From NCBI RefSeq assembly GCF_024500045.1, contig NZ_JTEO01000005.1, forward strand, positions 1-64,000: 64,000 bases of DNA, written 5' to 3'. Positions 5,999 to 18,701 of this stretch are shown one piece after another (position 1 is the first letter of the stretch; each line of letters opens with the position of its first letter). The notes under the pieces were generated by a model. It did no database searches. It was not told the origin of the DNA and saw only the letters and a list, made by a program, of their open reading frames with translations. Source of the stretch: Methanolobus chelungpuianus. GTDB taxonomy: Archaea; Halobacteriota; Methanosarcinia; Methanosarcinales; Methanosarcinaceae. A program made the position numbers and the translations under genes.

Positions 5999-6735
5999 TC
6001 ATGACCCGGAAACTGCTTCAATGGACCTTATTTCCACAAGCTGTCCCCACATGTGGAAGCTTGCCATATCCTCTGCAGGATACGCTGTGAACTCCACTTC
6101 CAGCCCGTCCTCCCTGAACTCCTCTCCAAGGTTCAGCGGATCATAGTTTACATCATCATCGCCTGCTATCCCATAGAATCCGCCCTCCAGGTCCATATAG
6201 ACCACAGTACCGGTCGTACGGATCATGGCTTCAGGAGTCACGGCATTAACTGTGAGTTCAAAGGTTTCCTCACTTCCCTTAATATCCTCCCAGGGGCGCT
6301 TGTAAACAGCAGAGATGTTATGGATGCCTTCTTCTGCAACTTCGAATGTCCAGTTGTGCACACCACCTGCGCCTACTACTCCTTCGGCTGCGGGATCCTG
6401 CACATACTCATCATCCACCGGAGAAAGACCCGGACTTGCCGACACTTTCCATGAGTATCCTGTTGTCGGGTTCTCCCTAAGGCTTATTACCAGTATATCC
6501 CCTTTTAGGGCTCTTATAGGGGATGTGTTATTGTCTTCAGTGTAGACTGAAGTCATAGGCTCGAATGATGGAGTGTTGTTATCTGCAGATGCATCCGACC
6601 CTTCAGGAATATTTGCTCCTTCATCTTCCGTGCCGTTATCCATAATACTGCTGCCGGTATCAGTGCATCCTGATGTAATAGCTGCTAATGCAATAATCCC
6701 GACTATAAGTAAAAGACCTGCCTTTGTCGTAGCAT
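5999..6735 (-). CDS. I42 (chagasin-like) protease-inhibitor lipoprotein, frameshift near start
   Basis: The intact frame (from Met at 6643) shows a chagasin/amoebapain inhibitor fold: LKGDILVISLRENPTTGYSWKV, GVVGAGGVHNWTF and AVYKRPWED, the three loops that block papain-type cysteine proteases. A second C-terminal domain follows from about residue 140 (VVYMDLEGGFYGIAGDDDVNYDP...MWGQLVEI). Upstream, AGGAGG-AAT-ATG at 6735 starts MLRQ and then runs out of frame. One base further on, the sequence reads a lipoprotein signal peptide, KAGLLLIVGIIALAAITSGC, in frame with the inhibitor. One missing A in the AAA run at about 6722-6725 explains this. Either the gene is broken at its start or the base is an assembly error. 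Confidence 0.7.
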
Positions 6736-6975: not shown

Positions 6976-9012
6976 GTGGCAATGGATTCCGGACATAAAC
7001 ACATGCATGGTGATAAAACAGATGAGAAGACACCTGAAGAACAGAAGCACCTCATGAAACAGGCGGAGCACAGGGATCATCATACGGGCATGCTTGAAGA
7101 CTTTAAAAGAAGGTTCGTAATTTCAGTCATTTTAAGTATACCGGTCCTTGTCCTGTCAGCTCACATACAGGCTTTTTTCGGCTTCGAATTAACGTTCCCC
7201 GGAGATGAGATAGCGGTATTCGTGCTATCCTCAGTGATATACTTCTATGGAGGATATCCGTTCCTTACAGGCTTCTTCAATGAGCTCAGGACAAAGACCC
7301 CGGGCATGATGACACTGATAGCTGTTGCGATTACTGTGGCCTACATATACAGCTCTGCGGTGATTTTCGGTCTTGAGGGAGAGGTGTTCTTCTGGGAACT
7401 GGTCACCCTTATAGACATCATGCTCCTTGGCCACTGGCTCGAGATGCGCTCCGTGATGGGAGCCTCGAGGGCACTGGAGGAACTGGTCAGGATAATGCCC
7501 TCTGTTGCCCACCTGGTAAAGGATGACAAAGTAGTGGACGTGCAAGTCGAAGAACTTAAAGTGGGGGACAGTGTGCTTGTCAAGCCCGGAGAGAAAGTTC
7601 CGGTTGATGGTGTTGTCACCAGAGGCGGGAGCAGTGTCAACGAGGCCATGCTGACAGGGGAATCATTGCCGGTGCAGAAGAAAGCAGGAGACACCGTCAT
7701 AGGAGGATCTGTCAACGGGGAAGGTTCTATTGAGGCAGAGGTCCGCAAGACAGGCAAAGATACCTACCTTAGCCAGGTCATCGACCTTGTGGAGAGCGCG
7801 CAGGGCAGCAGGTCAAGAACTCAGGACCTGGCAAACCGGGCAGCCCTTGTGCTTACCGTAATAGCCCTGAGTGTGGGTATCCTGACCCTTGCAGCATGGC
7901 TGTATTTTGGAAGTACCTTTGTCTTTGCACTGGAAAGAGCAGTGACCGTCATGGTTATCGCCTGTCCCCACGCCCTCGGTCTGGCCATACCCCTTGTGGT
8001 GGCTGTGTCCACTTCCCTTGCAGCTAACTCCGGCCTGCTTATCCGGGACCGGCAGGCTTTTGAGAGAGCAAGGGACCTGCAGGCGATCATATTCGATAAG
8101 ACTGGCACCCTTACCGAAGGAAAGTTCGGGGTCACCGATATAGTACCCCTGGCAGATATGAACCGGGAGGATATACTCAGGCTCACGGCCTCGCTTGAGT
8201 CAAATTCCGGTCACCCGATAGCAGTGGGTATTACTGACAGCGCCAGGCAGAAAGGCCTTGACATAAAAAGTCCGGAGAGCTTCAACTCCATTCCCGGCAA
8301 AGGCGTGGAGGGCGTTGTGGAAGGCAGGAAACTTAAAGTCGTCAGTCCGGGATACCTACGTGAGACAGGGATCAGCATCGGTGATGAGAGTGTAGGCAAT
8401 GTTGAGAAGCAAGGCAAGACTGTCGTTTTCCTTCTGGAGGAAGAAAGGCCTCTTGGAGCCCTAGGGCTTGCAGATCTTGTCAGGCGGGAGTCAAGGGAAG
8501 CCATAGACCGGCTGAAATCCATGGATATAAAATGCATGATGCTCACAGGCGATAATGAGTTCGTTGCCAGGTGGGTGTCTGAGGAACTGGGACTTGATGA
8601 ATACTTTGCAGGGGTGCTGCCTCACCAGAAGGCTGAGAAGGTAAAGGAAGTGCAGCAGAAGTACATCGTAGCCATGGTAGGCGACGGCGTGAACGATGCC
8701 CCTGCGCTTGTTCAGGCAAATGTGGGCATTGCCATTGGAGCCGGTACGGATGTAGCCATCGAGAGTGCGGATATCGTACTCGTGAAGAACGATCCCAGGA
8801 ATGTTGCGGACATAGCCGTACTCGCCAGGAAGACCTACTCCAAGATGTTCCAGAACCTGCTCTGGGCTACGGGCTACAACGCCTTTGCAATTCCCCTGGC
8901 AGCCGGGGTGCTCTATACTTCCGGCATTTTCCTCACTCCTGCAGCAGGGGCTTTCCTGATGAGTATCAGCACTGTTATTGTTGCCATCAATGCGAAGACA
9001 CTCAGGATGTGA
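6976..9012 (+). CDS. copB: copper-transporting P1B-type ATPase, CopB class
   Basis: A 678-aa membrane pump that hydrolyses ATP to move copper (probably export). It has a His/Met-rich N-terminus (GHKHMHG...EHRDHH) in place of a CxxC heavy-metal domain. About eight membrane helices, actuator TGES ([10 protein letters not shown]), membrane metal site CPH ([11 protein letters not shown]), phosphorylation loop [11 protein letters not shown] motif in SGHPIAVG and hinge [10 protein letters not shown] are all visible. CPH rather than CPC is the mark of the P1B-3/CopB subclass. The GTG at 6976 sits 3 bp after TAGGAG, and the ATG at 6982 is an equally possible start. Small membrane proteins and a cytochrome c follow on the same strand. 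Confidence 0.93.
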
Positions 9013-9550: not shown

Positions 9551-10075
9551 GTGGCAAGAAAGAATCTAGTGGTGATAGCACTTGCACTGATAGTTGCAGG
9601 TATAGCCGGACTGGTGTATCTTGCTTCCATCCCGGGGTACGTTCCCGGCATCAGGGGTCCCGGATATCCTGACACTGCATATCCCGTTAATGAGGATACT
9701 CTGGAGGCCGACTATGAGTCCAACGGGCAGATGATCTACTATACCGGATATAACGAGACAGGCCAGCGGATCGACACAAGCGGCGGACCTCACTGGCTCT
9801 ATGTGCATGGAGGCAGCTGTGTCCACTGTCATGGAGAAGACGGAAAAGGAGGAGTGCCTGTAATGATGGGATATGTAGTGCCAGCCGATATAACCTATGA
9901 AGGGCTCATTTCAGATGAACATGCCGAACATGAACCCTACACGGATGAGACTCTCAGAAGGGCCATAAGATCAGGGATAGACCCGGAAGGCCGTCCTCTT
10001 GACGCAACCATGCCAAGATGGGATATGACGGATGAGGATATAAGCGATCTGATAGATTATTTGAAGACTCTCTGA
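9551..10075 (+). CDS. membrane-anchored c-type cytochrome
   Basis: A 174-aa protein with an N-terminal signal anchor (NLVVIALALIVAGIAGLVYL), a Pro/Gly-rich linker and a class I cytochrome c fold: heme site CVHCH near residue 95, then MPRWDMTDEDISDLIDYLKTL, the usual distal Met followed by the C-terminal helix. The heme would face outside the cell. It starts at a GTG 2 bp after the SHOCT gene. Mono-heme cytochromes next to copper pumps are seen in Methanosarcinales; a role in extracellular redox or copper handling is inference. Confidence 0.85.
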   Translation: MARKNLVVIALALIVAGIAGLVYLASIPGYVPGIRGPGYPDTAYPVNEDTLEADYESNGQMIYYTGYNETGQRIDTSGGPHWLYVHGGSCVHCHGEDGKGGVPVMMGYVVPADITYEGLISDEHAEHEPYTDETLRRAIRSGIDPEGRPLDATMPRWDMTDEDISDLIDYLKTL

Positions 10076-10726: not shown

Positions 10727-11722
10727 TTACCATTTCTCCATGTAATCAAGGATCTCTTCCAGGCTTGCTGTTGCCACTGCCACGCAGGTGTCCGCACCTC
10801 CGTAGTACATCCTGACCTCATCACCTTCGAGCACCCAGCCGCAGGGAAAGACTACCTCGTTCACGTCACCTACTCTTTCATAGTTCTCACGGGGACCGAA
10901 TAGCCACTCATCGGCTCTTTTTAACACTACTGTAGGATCCTCCAGATCAAGTAGTGCAAGTCCCAGTTTGTAACTTATTTTAGCTTCAGTGTGCCTTACT
11001 CCATGATACATGACAAGCCAACCCTTATCAGTCCTTAAAGGCTGAGGGGACAGGCCTATCTTGTTCGCGTCCCACCATCCTCCGTCACGGGCATGAAGCA
11101 GGACCTGGTGTTCTCCCCACTGTTTCATATCCGTGGAGAATGAAATCCACATGTTGGCCTTGGCCATGCCACCTGCCACAGGCCTGTGGATAAGGGCCCA
11201 TCTGCCTTCGAACCTGACAGGGAATAGGGCTGCGTCCTTGTTCTCCGGGGGGAGCACTGAGCCAATGCGCTCGAATGTCTTAAAATCCCTGGTCCTTGCC
11301 ATTGAAGGCAGGGGGCCTGAAGATGAGAAAGATGTATAGGCTATATACCACTGCTTCTCATCTTCAACATAAGTAATACGCGCATCCTCGATGCCATACT
11401 CTTCTTCAGGATAGTTCTCCGGATCAGCCGTGAAAGTGGGGTGCGGATCTATTTCCCAGTTATCATAGCCGTTCTTGCTGCGTGCAACAGTAAGATGAGA
11501 GAAACCCCTGTGATCCTCCACCCTGACCAACAGCAGGGTTTCCCCGTCAACAATTACTGCTGCGGGGTTGAACACGGAGTTGGCCGGGTAGGGCCAGTCC
11601 CCTGCGGTAAGTATGGGATTGTCCTTGTACCTTTTAAAGAGCCCGTAATTTCCCACAGGCTCATTGATACTATAGCTTGCTGTTTTGCTCTCTGCAGATA
11701 CACATCCTTCCAATGATCCCAT
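10727..11722 (-). CDS. GH130 family mannoside phosphorylase-like protein (paralogue 1)
   Basis: GH130 enzymes phosphorolyse beta-mannosides (for example mannosyl-glucose or 1,2/1,4-mannobiose) to mannose-1-phosphate, reversibly and in the cytoplasm. This five-bladed propeller protein shows RYKDNPIL, YPANSVFNPAA, VRVEDHRGFSHLTVARS, EYGIEDARITY (carrying the catalytic Asp), LPPENKDAALFP, GWWDANKIGLSPQP and VFPCGW. It is highly similar over its whole length to the product at 16369-17319. The start is uncertain: ATG 11722 follows GGTGGATC, while ATG 11746 adds eight residues. Compared with the paralogue it has about 25 extra N-terminal residues. The substrate cannot be told from sequence. Confidence 0.9.
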   Translation of the reverse strand: MGSLEGCVSAESKTASYSINEPVGNYGLFKRYKDNPILTAGDWPYPANSVFNPAAVIVDGETLLLVRVEDHRGFSHLTVARSKNGYDNWEIDPHPTFTADPENYPEEEYGIEDARITYVEDEKQWYIAYTSFSSSGPLPSMARTRDFKTFERIGSVLPPENKDAALFPVRFEGRWALIHRPVAGGMAKANMWISFSTDMKQWGEHQVLLHARDGGWWDANKIGLSPQPLRTDKGWLVMYHGVRHTEAKISYKLGLALLDLEDPTVVLKRADEWLFGPRENYERVGDVNEVVFPCGWVLEGDEVRMYYGGADTCVAVATASLEEILDYMEKW

Positions 11723-11806
11723 TCTGATCCACCCGATAATTCCCATATTGTTCAGCTAATGTTAATTAAATATTGACCGACCTAATATAGCAACTTTTGT
11801 TTTATC

Positions 11807-13342
11807 TCATACATTCCTGAGTGTACCGGGTACAAAGACACCAATAGTGCGCCAGACATTTGTGCGCACCTGCCTGGCTATTGTCCTGTCATCGTCGTCA
11901 ATCACGCCTGAATACTGGCAGACAGCAAGGTACACCATTGCGAACATGCCATAAACCAGAAGCATACTGGCTGCAGGGAGCACGAACTTAAGCACCATCA
12001 TCACAGCTACGAGAGATACGCAGATGACCGTGAATTTCCTGTAGGCCATAGTGAACGGATGCATCCTGTGGGTTCTCCATGCCCTCATGGTCATGAGAAG
12101 CTCGATGCTTGCAAAGGACACTGCCGATGCCGCGGCTGCTCCTATCATGCCATGCTGCGGTATGAGCATGAAGTTCAGGACTACATTTATCACAGCACTT
12201 GCAGTTGAGCATTTCATCAGGAAGCCGGAGTCGCCAACTGCCATTATTGTGTGGTAGTTGAACCCGAAATAGGCGTTTGTTATGAAACCCAGGGCAAGTA
12301 TCCTCAGCACCGTGGCTCCCATTGCGTAGTCCGGACCGTACAGCCTGGTGAGTATGGCTTCCGGGTACACGAACATAAGCACGAATATGGGGAATGAGAG
12401 GACAAAGCACCATTTCGTGACTATCTGGTAGAGGGACTCAAGGATGTCCCTGCGGCCCTCGCCCCATATCCTGGAAGCTACCGGGATGTACACAAAGCCC
12501 ATGGATGTTATTATGATAGTAAGGAAGCTGACCAGCGGATAGACTGCGCTGTATATGCCTACTACCTGTGATGACTTGAAGTAGCCTAGCATTATGGTAT
12601 CGGTCCATGTCATAAGATTTAGCAGGGTTGCGCTTATGAGCAGCGGGAACGAGTACTTGACAAGCTGCTTTGTAGGCTCGCTGAAGCGGATCTTGAGCTC
12701 AGGCTTGAAAGGCGGGTGCTTTATGAAATATACCACCATCAGGCCGAATGTGAAAACCATTGAGAGTAGGTCCGCAAGCACGAAGGTATGCAGGGATACG
12801 CCCGCAAGCACTGCTATGGAAACAAAGGCCCACAGGGATACGGGTCTTATCACGTCATAGAAGTACATATTGACGTTCGTGCGGTCGAATCCTCTGTAGA
12901 TGGCTATGGCTATGTTGAGAAATATCGTCAGCGGGATCGCGAAGATCATTATCCTGATTATTGAAGCTATGTTCTCCTGGGTATCGAACATTCCCGCTGC
13001 CGCTCTTTCGAATACTATAGGCGACAGGAACATTGCCACTACGCCAGCCACCAGTCCCATGAGCAGGCCTGATACTACGATTTCCTGTATCTTGTGGTCT
13101 TCTTTCTTTCCTCTGAAGTATGCGATATATCTAGGTACACCCTCATGCAGGCCCAGCGTGGCTATAGCGCCTGTAAGGGATATAACTGTCAGTGCGAGTG
13201 AATAAGTGCCGAAGTCTGTCTGGGACAGGTTCCTTGTGAGCACTCCCTTGATGAGGATATTCAGGAGGAGTCCGCTGATAGTACCTGCGAATATTACTCC
13301 TGAACCTATCACTATTCTGTTTACGGATTCGTTAAGGGACAT
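11807..13342 (-). CDS. polysaccharide/oligosaccharide flippase of the MOP superfamily (Wzx-like)
   Basis: A 511-aa integral membrane protein with about 12-14 hydrophobic helices and the typical start IVIGSGVIFAGTISGLLLNILIKGVLTRNLSQTDFGTYSLALT of Wzx/RfbX flippases, which turn lipid-linked glycans across the membrane. The ATG is preceded by GGATGG. It lies 84 bp upstream of the first GH130 gene in the same direction and is divergent from the glycosyltransferase genes, so it belongs to the carbohydrate locus. Its substrate could be an S-layer glycan, an exopolysaccharide unit or the product of the neighbouring transferases. Confidence 0.9.
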   Translation of the reverse strand: MSLNESVNRIVIGSGVIFAGTISGLLLNILIKGVLTRNLSQTDFGTYSLALTVISLTGAIATLGLHEGVPRYIAYFRGKKEDHKIQEIVVSGLLMGLVAGVVAMFLSPIVFERAAAGMFDTQENIASIIRIMIFAIPLTIFLNIAIAIYRGFDRTNVNMYFYDVIRPVSLWAFVSIAVLAGVSLHTFVLADLLSMVFTFGLMVVYFIKHPPFKPELKIRFSEPTKQLVKYSFPLLISATLLNLMTWTDTIMLGYFKSSQVVGIYSAVYPLVSFLTIIITSMGFVYIPVASRIWGEGRRDILESLYQIVTKWCFVLSFPIFVLMFVYPEAILTRLYGPDYAMGATVLRILALGFITNAYFGFNYHTIMAVGDSGFLMKCSTASAVINVVLNFMLIPQHGMIGAAAASAVSFASIELLMTMRAWRTHRMHPFTMAYRKFTVICVSLVAVMMVLKFVLPAASMLLVYGMFAMVYLAVCQYSGVIDDDDRTIARQVRTNVWRTIGVFVPGTLRNV

Positions 13343-14028
13343 CTAGTTACCATCCATTCGTTGTTAGTAACCAGTCTGTGGATGAGCCATGATCCGGGGA
13401 GCTGACGCTATTTTACAGTAACCCGTGGGTGCGTGTGGTGGGTGCATAGCCACGGCTCTGAACAGCATTCAGCCGTAATCACTTCTATATGCTCCACGTG
13501 GTGGTTTGTTGAGCAATTAGTCGACAACATGTACATGATATATAAAGGTTATTATCCATTATCTCTTATAAAATTATAACTATGTGCTCTTGGACAAGTA
13601 TTTATTACTGTAGAAGATAATATAAATCAGTAAGAGATATCTGTATAATTGTTATACAAACCGGACCTGCATAAAATAAACAGGCGGCTGGGCCCCATCA
13701 TAAGGGGTTTTTCCCATATCCGTACGTTCCTTATGCCGGAAATATACTATAGAGACAGAAATAAAGTAAAGAACAAAATTACACGCTTAGAAATTTGCTT
13801 GTGAATAAGGTTAAATAAGATGCCTCCCAATATGCATTTAGGGAATCTGGCCGCCTAAAAGCAAAAACAGGTGGACAGACGGGGAAGAAAGGACTGATGT
13901 TACAATTTGGCTGGTATCTTTGAATAATGGACTATTAGTTGCAACTTTACTTAAATAACTTAAGACAGAGTTGACACATCGCACTTTTCAATAGCATGTT
14001 CAAATGTACTGCAAGCGGGGGTAGTTTA
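13343..14028. other. divergent intergenic region with two hairpins
   Basis: About 690 bp separate the flippase (minus) from the GT4 gene (plus). CCGTGG (13423-13428) pairs with CCACGG (13450-13455) around a loop containing GCGTGTGGTGG. TGCTC (13490-13494) pairs with GAGCA (13511-13515) around CACGTGGTGGTTTGTT. Both loops recall the GCGTGGTGGTTT word of the candidate RNA family. AGGCGGC (13682-13688) and GCCGCCT (13850-13856) form a wide inverted repeat. No open reading frame is convincing. It probably holds two divergent promoters and perhaps a non-coding transcript. Confidence 0.35.
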
Positions 14029-16347
14029 TTGAAACGAAAATTAAAAGTACTATTTGTCGGAACTTATGTTCCGCGGAAATGCGGGATCGCTACATTCACT
14101 TCTGATCTGCTTAACTCCATATCACAGGAAAACGGGCTCGTTGAATGCAAAGTCATAGCAATTAACGACATCGGTGAAAAATACGAGTATCCGGAAGATG
14201 TCGTGTTTGAAATAAGGAGGAACGAGATCGAAGATTACTACCGTGCGGCTGATTATGTAAATAATTCAGATGCAGATGTCATCTGCCTGCAACACGAGTT
14301 CGGCCTTTACTGGGGAGATGCCGGAGACTACATATTCACATTACTGTCAAATATCAGCAAACCTGTGATAACAACACTGCATACGGTGATAAAAGACCCT
14401 GAGCCTTCTTATCGCAGCGTCACCCAGAAGCTCATTGAGCATTCGGACAAAATGATAGTAATGAGCAAAACAGCAAGGAAACTGCTCCGGGAAGTTTACA
14501 ATGCGCCTGAAGAAAAGATCGAACTTATCTATCACGGAATCCCGGATTGTCCTTTCACAGGCTCTGAAGAACATAAAAAGGCGCTGGGCCTTCATGGGTC
14601 TCCCCTGATACTTACTTTTGGTCTCCTGAACCAGAACAAGGGGATAGAAACAGTCATCGATGCACTCCCGGCAGTGGTTGGAAGGAGCCCGGACCTGAAA
14701 TACCTGGTACTGGGCGCAACCCATCCGGAAGTTAAAAGGAATTTCGGGGAAGCGTACAGGGAGTACCTGATGAACAAGGTCAGTGAACTGGGGCTTGAGA
14801 ACAATGTGATCTTCCATGATAAGTTTGTCCAGAAGCGGGAACTTTATGAGTATATTCTTGCCAGCGACATTTACGTATCTCCTTACCTGCCTAAGGAACA
14901 GGTAGTCAGCGGCGCCCTGAGCTATGCCATCGGAATGGGAAAAGCAATTGTATCCACTCCTTACTGGTATGCCCAGGAAATGCTCATAGACGGGCGCGGC
15001 ATGCTAGTGGATTTCAAGGATAGTGAAGGGCTCAGCACTTCGCTGATGCATCTGATAAGTAACCCGGAAGATTGCGATCAGATGCGCAGGAAAGCTTATG
15101 ATTTCGGAAGACAGATGATATGGAATAACGTGGGCAAGGAATATGTCTCCGTATTCATGCAGGCGCTTGAAGAGTATACTGAACCGGCTCGCGCTATTGA
15201 AGCAGACTTTTTCCTGCAGCCTGAACAACTACCCAAGACCAACCTGGAGTATATGGTCTCCATGACAGACGATACGGGGATCTTCCAGCATACTCTCCTG
15301 GGAGTGCCAAGCCGCAGGCATGGCTACAGTACGGATGATGTGGGCAGAGGGCTGGTGGCACTCACAAGGGTCCTGTCTTCCGGGCAGCAGCAGATGAGCG
15401 AGATAAAAAGGCTGGCGACCATTTACCTCAGTTACCTGGAATATGCTCAGACCGAAAGCGGACATTTCCACAATTTTATGAGCTATGACAGGAAGTTCCT
15501 TGATGACAAAGGAAGCGATGACACTTTTGGCCGGGCACTCTACGGACTGGGCCATGCATGTGCCTGCCCCCAACTGCCACAGAACCTGAGAAGTCATGCG
15601 ATGGAGATCATTCGCAGGTCCAGGCCAAGTATGGATGAAATCCATGCCCCCAGGGGAAAGGCTTACACCATGTGCGGCCTGTACGAAATGCTCAGTAAGG
15701 ATATCGGGAAAGCCGAATTCTTTGCCATGTTCGTCAGCTATGCGGATTCCCTTGTCAACCTGTACAAAACTAACCGGTATGAAGATTGGGATTGGTTCGA
15801 GCCTGAAGTAACCTATGGTAATTCCAAGATATGTGAAGCCCTTATGCTTGCATACGACCTTACAGGGAAACAGGTATACAGGGACGTAGGGATAAAGACC
15901 CTGGATTTTCTCACGGATGTTCAGTGGAACGGGAAATTCTTCGATCTTGTCGGGTACAAGGGATGGTACAGGCGTAACGGGGAAAAGGCCCTGTTCGGAC
16001 AGCAGCCCATTGACGCGGCCTATCTCACGGAAGCCTATATCACCGCCTACGAGATGACCCTTGACGAGAAGTATCTCCGGCTTGCAAATCGGGCCTTTGA
16101 GTATTTCTTTGGCAGGAACAGGCTTAAGCTTCTCATGTACGATCACTCCAGCGGAGCCGTATGTGACGGACTTGACCCGACAGGCATGAATGAGAACAAG
16201 GGCGCAGAGTCGGTTGTCTGTTTCATTATGGCCCTGGAACTGCTGGGCAGATATTCAGGCGATCCTGCCAGTATGCACCGCGAGACCGGCAGAGGACTGA
16301 TGGGCGTCTATGAAAAGAAGGAGTTCTCGTCCAAGAGCCTGAGCTGA
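14029..16347 (+). CDS. GT4 glycosyltransferase fused to an (alpha/alpha)6 glycosidase-like domain
   Basis: A 772-aa cytoplasmic protein. Residues about 1-390 form a GT-B transferase: VLFVGTYVPRKCGIATFTSDLL start, TTLHTVIKDPEPSYR, KMIVMSKTARKLL, NQNKGIETVIDALP, and the donor site YVSPYLPKEQVVSGALSYAIGMGKA. From about residue 420 to the end lies a helical repeat domain (STDDVGRGLVALTRVL, DTFGRALYGLGHAC, YGNSKICEALMLAYDLTG, PIDAAYLTEAYITAYEMT) typical of six-hairpin glycosidase/epimerase folds. TTG at 14029 is chosen because GGGGGTAG lies 7 bp upstream; ATG 13996 has no ribosome site. GH130 and GT4-cupin genes follow, so a mannose donor is the best guess. Confidence 0.85.
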   Translation: MKRKLKVLFVGTYVPRKCGIATFTSDLLNSISQENGLVECKVIAINDIGEKYEYPEDVVFEIRRNEIEDYYRAADYVNNSDADVICLQHEFGLYWGDAGDYIFTLLSNISKPVITTLHTVIKDPEPSYRSVTQKLIEHSDKMIVMSKTARKLLREVYNAPEEKIELIYHGIPDCPFTGSEEHKKALGLHGSPLILTFGLLNQNKGIETVIDALPAVVGRSPDLKYLVLGATHPEVKRNFGEAYREYLMNKVSELGLENNVIFHDKFVQKRELYEYILASDIYVSPYLPKEQVVSGALSYAIGMGKAIVSTPYWYAQEMLIDGRGMLVDFKDSEGLSTSLMHLISNPEDCDQMRRKAYDFGRQMIWNNVGKEYVSVFMQALEEYTEPARAIEADFFLQPEQLPKTNLEYMVSMTDDTGIFQHTLLGVPSRRHGYSTDDVGRGLVALTRVLSSGQQQMSEIKRLATIYLSYLEYAQTESGHFHNFMSYDRKFLDDKGSDDTFGRALYGLGHACACPQLPQNLRSHAMEIIRRSRPSMDEIHAPRGKAYTMCGLYEMLSKDIGKAEFFAMFVSYADSLVNLYKTNRYEDWDWFEPEVTYGNSKICEALMLAYDLTGKQVYRDVGIKTLDFLTDVQWNGKFFDLVGYKGWYRRNGEKALFGQQPIDAAYLTEAYITAYEMTLDEKYLRLANRAFEYFFGRNRLKLLMYDHSSGAVCDGLDPTGMNENKGAESVVCFIMALELLGRYSGDPASMHRETGRGLMGVYEKKEFSSKSLS

Positions 16348-16368
16348 ACACTATATGGAGATGTCCGA

Positions 16369-17319
16369 ATGGAATGGGAAGACCGTGGAGAGCTATTCAA
16401 ACGATATGAGAAGAATCCGATACTCCGTGCAGATGACTGGCCCTACCCGGCCAATTCCGTGTTCAACCCGGCTGCGGCACTTGTGGACGGGGATACGCTG
16501 CTGATGGTCAGGGTTGAAGACCACAGGGGATTCTCCCACATGACAGTCGCCCGGAGTGAGAATGGTTACGATGACTGGGTGATCGATGACCATCCTACGT
16601 TTCCGGCTGACCCGGAAAATTATCCGGAGGAACAATACGGCATAGAGGACCCACGCATTACTTACATCGAAGAACAGGATGCCTGGGCAGTGGCATATAC
16701 AGCGTATTCTGAGTCAGGCCCTCTGACCGGGCTGGCAATGACAAAGGACTTCAGGCATTTTGACAGGATAGGCGCTACCCTGCCTCCTGAGAACAAGGAT
16801 GCAGCCCTGTTTCCCGTCAGGTTCGGCGGCAGGTGGGCAATGCTCCACAGGCCGGTCTCCAGCATATCAAACGCAAAGTCGAATATATGGATATCATTTT
16901 CTCCGGACATGAAATACTGGGGCGAGCATCAGGTCCTGCTCTATGCCCGCGAGGGAGGCTGGTGGGACGCGAACAAGATAGGCCTGTCCCCGCAACCCAT
17001 TTACACTGATGAGGGCTGGCTTATCATGTATCACGGAGTGCGCGCCACTACATCAAAAATAAGCTATCGCCTTGGAATGGCGCTGCTGGACCTGGGGGAT
17101 CCAAGAAAGGTAATATGCAGGTCGGATGGCTGGATATTCGGGCCCCGTGAACTCTATGAAAGGACAGGGGACGTCAATGATGTTGTGTTTCCCTGCGGAT
17201 GGCTTCGCCAGAACAACGAAATACGCCTGTATTACGGAAGTGCCGATACTTATGTGTCTGTTGCCACTGCCCGATTATCTGACCTGCTTGACTACATGCG
17301 CACGCGTCCAAGATACTGA
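16369..17319 (+). CDS. GH130 family mannoside phosphorylase-like protein (paralogue 2)
   Basis: A 316-aa protein sharing nearly all blocks with the protein encoded at 10727-11722 (DWPYPANSVFNPAA, RVEDHRGFSHMTVARSENG, QYGIEDPRITY, LPPENKDAALFPVRF, GWWDANKIGLSPQP). It starts 21 bp after the GT4 fusion gene and is followed 29 bp later by the GT4-cupin gene, so the three form an operon. Differences from paralogue 1 include the loop SSISNAKSN in place of GGMAKAN. Role: reversible phosphorolysis of a beta-mannoside or, in reverse, synthesis from mannose-1-phosphate. Which direction applies here is not visible. Confidence 0.9.
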   Translation: MEWEDRGELFKRYEKNPILRADDWPYPANSVFNPAAALVDGDTLLMVRVEDHRGFSHMTVARSENGYDDWVIDDHPTFPADPENYPEEQYGIEDPRITYIEEQDAWAVAYTAYSESGPLTGLAMTKDFRHFDRIGATLPPENKDAALFPVRFGGRWAMLHRPVSSISNAKSNIWISFSPDMKYWGEHQVLLYAREGGWWDANKIGLSPQPIYTDEGWLIMYHGVRATTSKISYRLGMALLDLGDPRKVICRSDGWIFGPRELYERTGDVNDVVFPCGWLRQNNEIRLYYGSADTYVSVATARLSDLLDYMRTRPRY

Positions 17320-17348
17320 TCTTGTTTGTTTATATTAGGGGGAGTTTT

Positions 17349-18701
17349 ATGAGAATAGCTATGTTATCTCCGATTGCATGGACCACACCACCTAAAAAAT
17401 ATGGTCCGTGGGAATATATTGTGTCTCTGCTAACGGAGAATCTGGTAAAGAAAGGTATAGATGTAACCCTGTTCGCAACCGGGGATTCAAGTACTGCAGG
17501 AAAGTTAGTTTCTGTTTATCCCAGACCTTACGAAGAAGATAAGGAAATGAATGTGAAAGTCTATGAGAGCCTTCACATATCAGAGGTTTTCGAGAGGTCC
17601 GATGAGTTCGATATAATCCATAATCACTTCGACTTCCTGCCACTCACATACAGCGGGCTTGTGGACACGCCGGTGGTCACGACCATACATGGCTTCTCCT
17701 CAAGGTCCATCCTGCCGGTCTATAAAAAATACAATAAGAAGACTTTCTACGTGTCCATCAGTGATTCCCACAGGTGTCCTGAACTGGATTACATTGCCAC
17801 GGTACTTCATGGCATCGAGGTGGAGAACTTCCCCTTCAACGAGAATCCGCAGGACTACATCCTCTTTTTGTCACGTCTTGATAAGTTCAAGGGCATAAAG
17901 GATGCAATAGAGATAGCAAAGAAAGCCGGGATGAAATTAAGGATAGCGGGCTTCATACCTAATATGGAATATTATGAGAAAGAGGTCAAACACCTTATAG
18001 ATAATGAGCAGATCATTTACGAAGGACACATAGACCCGGAATTCAAGAGAGAACTGCTGTCCAATGCCCGCGCCCTTATACATCCGGTAAAGTTCGATGA
18101 GCCTTTCGGACTGGGGATAGTGGAGGCTTTTTCCTGCGGTACGCCTGTGATCGCCTATAACCGGGGCTCAATGCCCGAACTGATAAAGAACGGAGAGACC
18201 GGGTTTGTGGTAAATGGCATTGATGAGGCAGTGGATGCGCTGAAAAAGATAGACACGATATCCCGGAAGAGATGCAGAGAGACAGCTGAGAAAAATTATT
18301 CTGCCAGCAGGATGGCCGACGAGTACATCAAGGTCTACGAAAAGATACTCGAGGTGCGTAAAACCGAAGAGAAGCGGCCCTGGGGTTATTATAAGGTGCT
18401 GTCAGAAGATCCGGGTTTCAAGGTCAAGACAATTACAGTGATGCCAGGCGAAAAAATATCCCTCCAGAGACATTTTCACAGGAGTGAGCACTGGTTCGTG
18501 GTCGAAGGGGAAGGAATAGTTGACGAGGACAAGCAGCGCTTCAAGGTAGAGGACGGGGATTCCGTGGATATCCCTACAAATGCCGTTCACAGGATCATGA
18601 ATACCGGCGATGAGAAGCTCACTTTTGTGGAGATAGCAAAGGGTGACCAGATAGAAGAAGAAGACATCGAGAGGCTTGAGGATGAATATGGAAGGGTGTA
18701 A
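17349..18701 (+). CDS. GT4 glycosyltransferase fused to a phosphomannose-isomerase-type cupin
   Basis: A 450-aa protein starting MRIAMLSPIAWTTPP after a GGGGGAG site. Residues 1-335 are a GT-B transferase with WEYIVSLLTENLVKKG, FLSRLDKFKGIKDAIEIAKKAG and donor-site EPFGLGIVEAFSCGTPVIAYNRGSMPEL. Residues about 345-450 are a cupin as in the C-terminal domain of type II mannose-6-phosphate isomerase/ManC: KRPWGYYKVL, MPGEKISLQRHFHRSEHW, VVEGEGIV, IPTNAVHRIMN. The metal ligands His and Glu are present. Such a fusion suggests isomerisation of fructose-6-P/mannose-6-P next to mannosyl transfer. It is the last gene of the three-gene operon. Confidence 0.88.
   Translation: MRIAMLSPIAWTTPPKKYGPWEYIVSLLTENLVKKGIDVTLFATGDSSTAGKLVSVYPRPYEEDKEMNVKVYESLHISEVFERSDEFDIIHNHFDFLPLTYSGLVDTPVVTTIHGFSSRSILPVYKKYNKKTFYVSISDSHRCPELDYIATVLHGIEVENFPFNENPQDYILFLSRLDKFKGIKDAIEIAKKAGMKLRIAGFIPNMEYYEKEVKHLIDNEQIIYEGHIDPEFKRELLSNARALIHPVKFDEPFGLGIVEAFSCGTPVIAYNRGSMPELIKNGETGFVVNGIDEAVDALKKIDTISRKRCRETAEKNYSASRMADEYIKVYEKILEVRKTEEKRPWGYYKVLSEDPGFKVKTITVMPGEKISLQRHFHRSEHWFVVEGEGIVDEDKQRFKVEDGDSVDIPTNAVHRIMNTGDEKLTFVEIAKGDQIEEEDIERLEDEYGRV

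Follow-up and report, generated by a model that had tools for sequence, protein, structure and literature searches.

What does a methanogen do with two predicted mannoside phosphorylases set beside a flippase and two glycosyltransferases, each of the latter fused to a further domain? The question is raised by five genes at positions 10727-18701 of the window, i.e., of the whole stretch of 64,000 nucleotides that was analysed (positions 1 to 64,000 of contig NZ_JTEO01000005.1 of Methanolobus chelungpuianus). From the sequence alone, the original prediction had placed here two close GH130 paralogues, a GT4 glycosyltransferase fused to an (alpha/alpha)6-like domain, a GT4 fused to a phosphomannose isomerase (PMI) cupin, and a flippase, and had proposed that they build and phosphorolyse a mannose oligomer, as a reserve or compatible solute, or trim an exported glycan. 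All five genes and their domains were confirmed at these positions. They are organized in two divergent arms: GH130-A and the flippase on the minus strand, and the closely packed genes C (GT4-barrel), D (GH130) and E (GT4-cupin) on the plus strand, with a gap of 21 bp between C and D. The data presented below establish that these genes exist as a set and are linked in function; that they constitute a cytoplasmic module by which a mannose-containing oligosaccharide is made and then remodelled through phosphorolysis is a proposal that we hold to be evenly balanced between right and wrong. The features of the locus are the following:

10727..11746, minus strand: GH130-A, one of the two paralogues, predicted to be an inverting phosphorylase of beta-mannosides, probably beta-1,2 (PF04041, E 6e-58; motifs IED, NKD, HRP and NKIG present)
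11807..13342, minus strand: polysaccharide flippase of the MOP superfamily (PF01943, Polysacc_synt, E 1e-26)
13343..13995, no strand: divergent intergenic region with the presumed promoters of both arms (imperfect inverted repeat 13560-13578/13621-13639)
13996..15180, plus strand: GT4 domain of protein C, residues 1-395 (PF00534, E 6e-17)
15181..16347, plus strand: (alpha/alpha)6 domain of protein C (AlphaFold2 model, mean pLDDT 92, and fold matches)
16369..17319, plus strand: GH130 D, predicted core phosphorylase of the module (PF04041, E 1e-54; AlphaFold2 pLDDT 93)
17349..18356 (open reading frame from 17322), plus strand: GT4 domain of protein E, a TeGSS-like retaining glycosyltransferase (GT4 Pfam model, E 3e-26; PDB 7fg9/8x3q, E 8e-81)
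18357..18701, plus strand: type-II PMI cupin of protein E (PF01050, MannoseP_isomer, E 1e-33; C-terminal part of TIGR01479, E 6e-33)

The two GH130 proteins, which are the only ones encoded in the genome, share 71% identity and score 196.8 and 186.0 bits against PF04041, for a curated cut-off of 26. The roles of active-site residues were taken from PMC4599007, the mapping of positions being our own. Both copies possess the catalytic Asp94 as well as Glu93, Lys143, Arg161 and Lys203, Arg161 and Lys203 forming the phosphate site. Among 129 GH130 relatives, Glu93, Asp94 and Arg161 are found in all, Lys143 in 118 and Lys or Arg at position 203 in 126. Lys143 aligns with Lys199 of BT3780, the lysine of the NKD motif that determines the beta-1,2 linkage in that enzyme (PMC4599007), and the residue preceding the catalytic aspartate is Glu93, not the tyrosine of beta-1,4 enzymes. 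The NKD and IED motifs are common to A, D, Lin0857, Teth514_1788, Teth514_1789 and Uhgb_MS, whereas the beta-1,4 enzymes TM1225, UhgbMP and RaMP2 have YD and NRNG in their place. The AlphaFold2 model of GH130-D (predicted local distance difference test, pLDDT, 93) is a five-bladed propeller that matches every solved GH130 with Z scores of 36-44. The best matches are the beta-1,2 phosphorylases Lin0857 (Z 44.3, root-mean-square deviation, rmsd, 1.6), Uhgb_MS (Z 42.6) and Teth514_1788 (Z 41.8), all at rmsd 1.5-1.7, followed by the beta-1,4 enzymes (Z 41-39, rmsd 2.2-2.8) and the hydrolases (Z 37-36). Both copies retain the phosphate-site residues and lack the hydrolase signature, and the predicted fold resembles beta-1,2 phosphorylases most closely. 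The prediction that A and D act by phosphorolysis and not by hydrolysis is thus well supported at the level of sequence; the mannose-1-phosphate chemistry put forward in the original prediction is likely, as is a beta-1,2 linkage specificity of both enzymes. In trees, A and D sit in a clade of their own (support 99), within which GH130-A groups with other Methanolobus copies (support 100). A recent duplication is not supported, each of the two clustering with its own Methanolobus orthologues.

The C-terminal domain of protein C gives only weak matches to the GH88/C5-epimerase Pfam models. Its AlphaFold2 model (mean pLDDT 92) is a true (alpha/alpha)6 barrel, with Z scores of 25-38 to (alpha/alpha)6 proteins, which upholds the fold first proposed for it. 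The nearest solved relative in both fold and sequence is YPO2471 (PDB 7tem; Z 38.2, profile E 2e-20), with which the domain shares a DG..N.N.GAES motif. YPO2471 differs in that it is described as exported and that the solved chain bears no glycosyltransferase fusion; its function is unknown and it therefore does not inform the mechanism. The sequence motifs shared with YPO2471 also indicate that the barrel family occurs outside the module. Cellobiose 2-epimerases follow at Z ~30 and GH76 enzymes at Z 27. An alignment of 57 barrels has 20 invariant residues, three of which are acidic (Asp115, Asp330 and Glu344). AGE-type sugar 2-epimerases have two conserved catalytic histidines; no such pair is conserved here, the single histidine column at or above 90% being His38, near the N-terminus, and the epimerase reading was rejected. 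In GH76 alpha-mannanases an adjacent pair of aspartates is catalytic, and Asp53-Asp54, present in 56 of the 57 barrels, may be a counterpart. The domain is probably a carbohydrate-active or carbohydrate-binding barrel. Throughout nearly the entire family of the GT4 domain of C (83 rows), Ala, Thr or Ser takes the place of the second glutamate of the EX7E motif, which suggests that the donor is bound, or the reaction run, in an unusual way. At loci L107 (G005) and L108 (G001), from genomes of the order, a TGA and a TAA, one of each, are reported within the match, yet the frame is open over 760 amino acids.

Protein E probably starts at ATG 17349 and not at TTG 17322, as the protein then begins with MRIAMLSP, in register with the MRIAQVAP that opens TeGSS. 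Among solved structures, TeGSS (PDB 7fg9/8x3q) is the nearest to the GT4 domain of E: the alignment covers the full domain (E 8e-81), and the equivalents of the catalytic residues Tyr18 and Arg179 are kept. TeGSS is a retaining UDP-Glc:sucrose alpha-1,2-glucosyltransferase (PMC9909042). It stands alone, whereas E bears a PMI cupin. The identity of this cupin, proposed from the start, is borne out by the match to PF01050 and by the intact type-II ligands: Q382, H384, E389, H423 and R451 are at least 95% conserved (26 rows), and the metal ligands and the C-terminal DxYGR signature are intact. The presence of a PMI cupin on the same polypeptide argues for mannose as the sugar.

We then asked how far this gene set extends beyond M. 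chelungpuianus. A scan of 84,980 species genomes yielded 79 distinct loci for the closest GH130s; these loci were picked by GH130 similarity and many come from metagenome bins. The nearest public relatives are Methanolobus and Methanosarcina, and the loci cover 14 bacterial phyla in addition to Methanosarcinales. A barrel lies no more than 6 kb from the GH130 gene in 40 of the 44 loci that are flanked by 4.5 kb or more in both directions (34 of 37 when archaea are left aside), and in 31 loci the GH130 gene is directly preceded, on its own strand, by a fused GT4-barrel gene. Clostridia encode the barrel as a gene separate from the GT4, in the order GH130 - NTP_transferase - GT4 - (alpha/alpha)6 - PMM/PGM - PMI; this arrangement with GDP-mannose-making genes links the module to GDP-mannose. 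Two sets are plasmid-borne, on a plasmid of Deinococcus sp. KNUC1210 (L148, 2590-6936) and on the conjugative pILYOP02 of Ilyobacter polytropus (L153, 2916-8642), and both comprise the GT4-barrel, a TeGSS-like GT4 and a GH130. At the level of the order, 30 of 150 genomes encode the barrel and all 30 of these encode the GH130, while 3 have the GH130 without the barrel and 117 have neither (Fisher p = 2e-28, relatedness ignored); these counts are of strong matches, one marginal GH130 and three marginal barrel matches having been set aside. Within the genus, both genes are found in 6 of 24 genomes and neither in the other 18. The GT4-barrel and GH130 genes have thus been gained or lost jointly in these 150 related archaeal genomes. 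As orthologous neighbourhoods recur so widely, the gene set is not due to chance. These data also reject an arrangement specific to methanogens, the core of GT4-(alpha/alpha)6 and GH130 being common in bacteria. The archaeal GH130s form one group within bacterial diversity in the trees, which suggests that they were acquired from bacteria and afterwards lost or transferred. The original prediction knew of no description of the arrangement: a search of the open-access literature likewise found none of the module as a unit, no paper on YPO2471 and none on GH130 with glycosyltransferases in Methanosarcina.

Several further observations were made on these loci. For the genes of L148 and L153, annotation goes no further than generic glycosyltransferase, GH130 or hypothetical protein. 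L017, L026, L030, L041, L049, L056 and others possess a GH130 of a second group, which is more distant (~40% identical) and has arginine for the lysine of the NKD motif; it often follows a TeGSS-like GT4, including in anaerobic methanotrophic archaea (ANME-2), and some loci thus have two kinds of GH130. Methanosarcina acetivorans is among the species with a GH130. Extra GH130 copies ~70% identical to those of the window occur in the Methanosarcina-type loci L115, L116, L118, L120-L122, L124-L127, L129 and L132, where no GT4-barrel gene was seen within the short stretches fetched; these copies possibly have a separate role.

How might these proteins work together? GT4 enzymes retain configuration and yield alpha-glycosides from the usual alpha-linked donors. 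As GH130 enzymes cut beta-mannosides, the two GT4s cannot directly make the bond that the GH130s cleave, and a cycle of synthesis and phosphorolysis demands a product of mixed linkages. In the mechanism we propose, the cupin of E and the GMP-PMI encoded elsewhere in the genome (C4:426278) would convert fructose-6-phosphate into mannose-6-phosphate, from which a phosphomannomutase and a guanylyltransferase, both encoded outside the locus, would produce mannose-1-phosphate and then GDP-mannose. Such a supply of GDP-mannose is plausible since the genome possesses PMM/PGM (phosphomannomutase-type) genes in addition to GMP-PMI. The GT4 domains of C and E, both retaining, would build an alpha-linked glycoside or short glycan, to which the GH130s would add beta-mannosyl units (most likely beta-1,2) from alpha-mannose-1-phosphate, or from which they would remove them with phosphate, while the barrel, tied to the first GT4, may bind or trim the same glycan. 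As the GH130 reaction is reversible, mannose-1-phosphate could return to the GDP-mannose pool with no kinase step. Attachment of a beta-1,2 residue to an acceptor of alpha-mannoside type has a precedent in the mixed-linkage mannoside synthase Uhgb_MS, a GH130 that transfers beta-1,2-linked mannose from mannose-1-phosphate onto mannose or alpha-1,2-mannobiose (PMC8950772). Uhgb_MS resembles GH130-D in fold (Z 42.6) and in its IED, NKD and HR motifs, and differs by an identity of 33% and by an arginine where the GH130s of the window have Lys203. We know of no GT4-barrel context for Uhgb_MS.

The analysis shows which genes are present, that their active-site residues are intact, which folds the proteins adopt in the models, that the core pair stays linked and that it is tied to GDP-mannose genes in Clostridia. 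Substrate, linkage, direction and physiological role are what we infer from this, and we favour an intracellular reserve or stress sugar. The build-and-phosphorolyse cycle of the original prediction thus holds in so far as the genes for synthesis and those for phosphorolysis are conserved together as a unit, and needs the amendment of mixed linkages. Its mannose oligomer is in line with the GDP-mannose genes of the clostridial version, while the glucosyltransferase nearest to the GT4 of E implies that some of the sugars may be other than mannose. This last point counts against our proposal, as do four others: (i) for the GT4 of C, solved structures are no more than weak matches, and no relative is both close and characterised; (ii) any role given to the (alpha/alpha)6 domain is a guess; (iii) the GH130 clade, although strongly supported, has no member of known activity in the sets searched; and (iv) the deep neighbour of this clade shifts with the tree model, from beta-1,4 GH130_2 enzymes (FastTree) to beta-1,2 enzymes at support 80 (mixture model).

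A broader version of this proposal, which we put forward tentatively and regard as doubtful, is a previously undescribed, widely mobile 'mannogen-like' system of bacteria and methanogenic and methanotrophic archaea, in which an alpha-glycan made by the GT4-barrel and the TeGSS-like GT4 would carry beta-1,2-mannosyl units as a phosphorolysable reserve of carbon and mannose-1-phosphate, beside glycogen or in its place. It recalls the mannogen cycle of Leishmania, in which a beta-1,2-mannan reserve is built and phosphorolysed by GH130-like propellers, the MTPs of family GT108 (PMC8950772). The likeness of fold is more distant, MPT-4 matching the GH130-D model at Z 25.5 and 16% identity where GH130s reach Z 44, and in Leishmania a single enzyme family serves both synthesis and breakdown. 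To our knowledge, GT108 mannogen enzymes have no GT4 or barrel partner. If the proposal is true, the endogenous sugar metabolism of methanogens that do not eat sugars includes mannose phosphorolysis, and a single conserved gene pair would be a pointer to one shared glycan across Methanosarcina, ANME-2, Planctomycetes, Acidobacteria, Clostridia and others. The proposal also raises a defined biochemical question, i.e., what the GT4-barrel and GH130 produce together, for which Methanosarcina is genetically tractable.

Assembly of a surface or protein glycan would account for the flippase: a lipid-linked oligosaccharide with a beta-mannosyl unit would be made by the GT4s and exported by the flippase, the GH130s editing or recycling it beforehand. 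GT4 genes are typical of such pathways and form further clusters in the genome, one of which includes GMP-PMI (C4:418-427 kb). However, among the 79 loci the flippase adjoins the module only in L003, L005 and L013, all of Methanolobus type, and neither in Methanosarcina nor in bacterial loci; no initiating prenyl-phosphate sugar transferase or oligosaccharyltransferase is found among the annotated flanking genes. GH130-A, too, adjoins the core in no loci but those of Methanolobus type, and L005 has the flippase without it. The flippase was therefore rejected as a core member; it and GH130-A are probably accessories added later in Methanolobus. We consider glycan assembly rather unlikely, and the trimming of an exported glycan, as first suggested, is weakly supported.

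We give a comparable, low weight to a compatible solute, in which a small mannosyl or glucosyl oligosaccharide would accumulate in response to salt or cold, with the GH130s regaining mannose-1-phosphate once the stress is over. TeGSS, the nearest relative of the GT4 of E, makes the stress-induced glucosylsucrose of cyanobacteria (PMC9909042), and the patchy occurrence of the module in the genus is as expected of a niche trait. However, the annotated genes of the locus include no primer enzyme of sucrose or glycerate type, and Clostridia and many other loci have the core without the TeGSS-like GT4.

Salvage of imported beta-mannosides, in which the GH130s would yield mannose-1-phosphate for GDP-mannose as proposed for Thermoanaerobacter (PMC4264767), appears improbable in Methanolobus. 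The kinds of genes are the same: in the cluster Teth514_1785-1796 of Thermoanaerobacter sp. X-514, GH130s assayed as beta-1,2-mannoside phosphorylases adjoin a GT4 gene, and a mannose-1-phosphate guanylyltransferase is shared with the clostridial module, in the same order GH130, guanylyltransferase, GT4 (PMC4264767). A hypothetical protein follows GT4 where Clostridia have the barrel gene, a match by position alone. However, the Thermoanaerobacter cluster also has an ATP-binding cassette (ABC) sugar importer and a GH5, and its GT4, a separate gene, is described as a GDP-mannose alpha-mannosyltransferase (PMC4264767). In contrast, the Methanolobus locus has no guanylyltransferase, the first of its GT4s is fused to the barrel and the second to the PMI cupin, and its GH130s belong to a different subclade (33-35% identity by structure alignment). 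No ABC or other sugar importer is found among the annotated genes near the locus, in keeping with a substrate made by the cell itself. Growth of Methanolobus on methyl compounds and not on sugars also counts against salvage, and the importer-linked GH130 on the Sphingomonas plasmid L152 is of another clade, with no GT4-barrel gene within the stretch shown. Finally, it is very improbable that the GH130s are hydrolases or transferases not using phosphate: although the family includes beta-1,2-mannosidases (PMC4599007) and the clade of the window lacks a characterised member in the trees, hydrolases are without the basic phosphate-site residues (PMC4599007) that are kept here (Arg161 and Lys203) and in nearly all of the 129 relatives, and they are the more distant fold matches, on which grounds the hydrolytic reading was rejected.

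The divergent intergenic region 13343..13995 has no Rfam match, and a promoter scan of it gave a signal near chance level. The genome, of 2.6 Mb, is 99.99% complete by the tool's estimate, and the locus is flanked by genes for a Cu-ATPase, a cytochrome c, an EamA transporter and methyltransferases. In this methylotrophic methanogen, the copper-type P-ATPase (6976-9012) adjoins a short c-type cytochrome with one CxxCH motif (9551-10075). An open reading frame at 5999-6643 of the window carries an NPTTGYSW motif, which we take to resemble that of chagasin-type (I42) cysteine-protease inhibitors.

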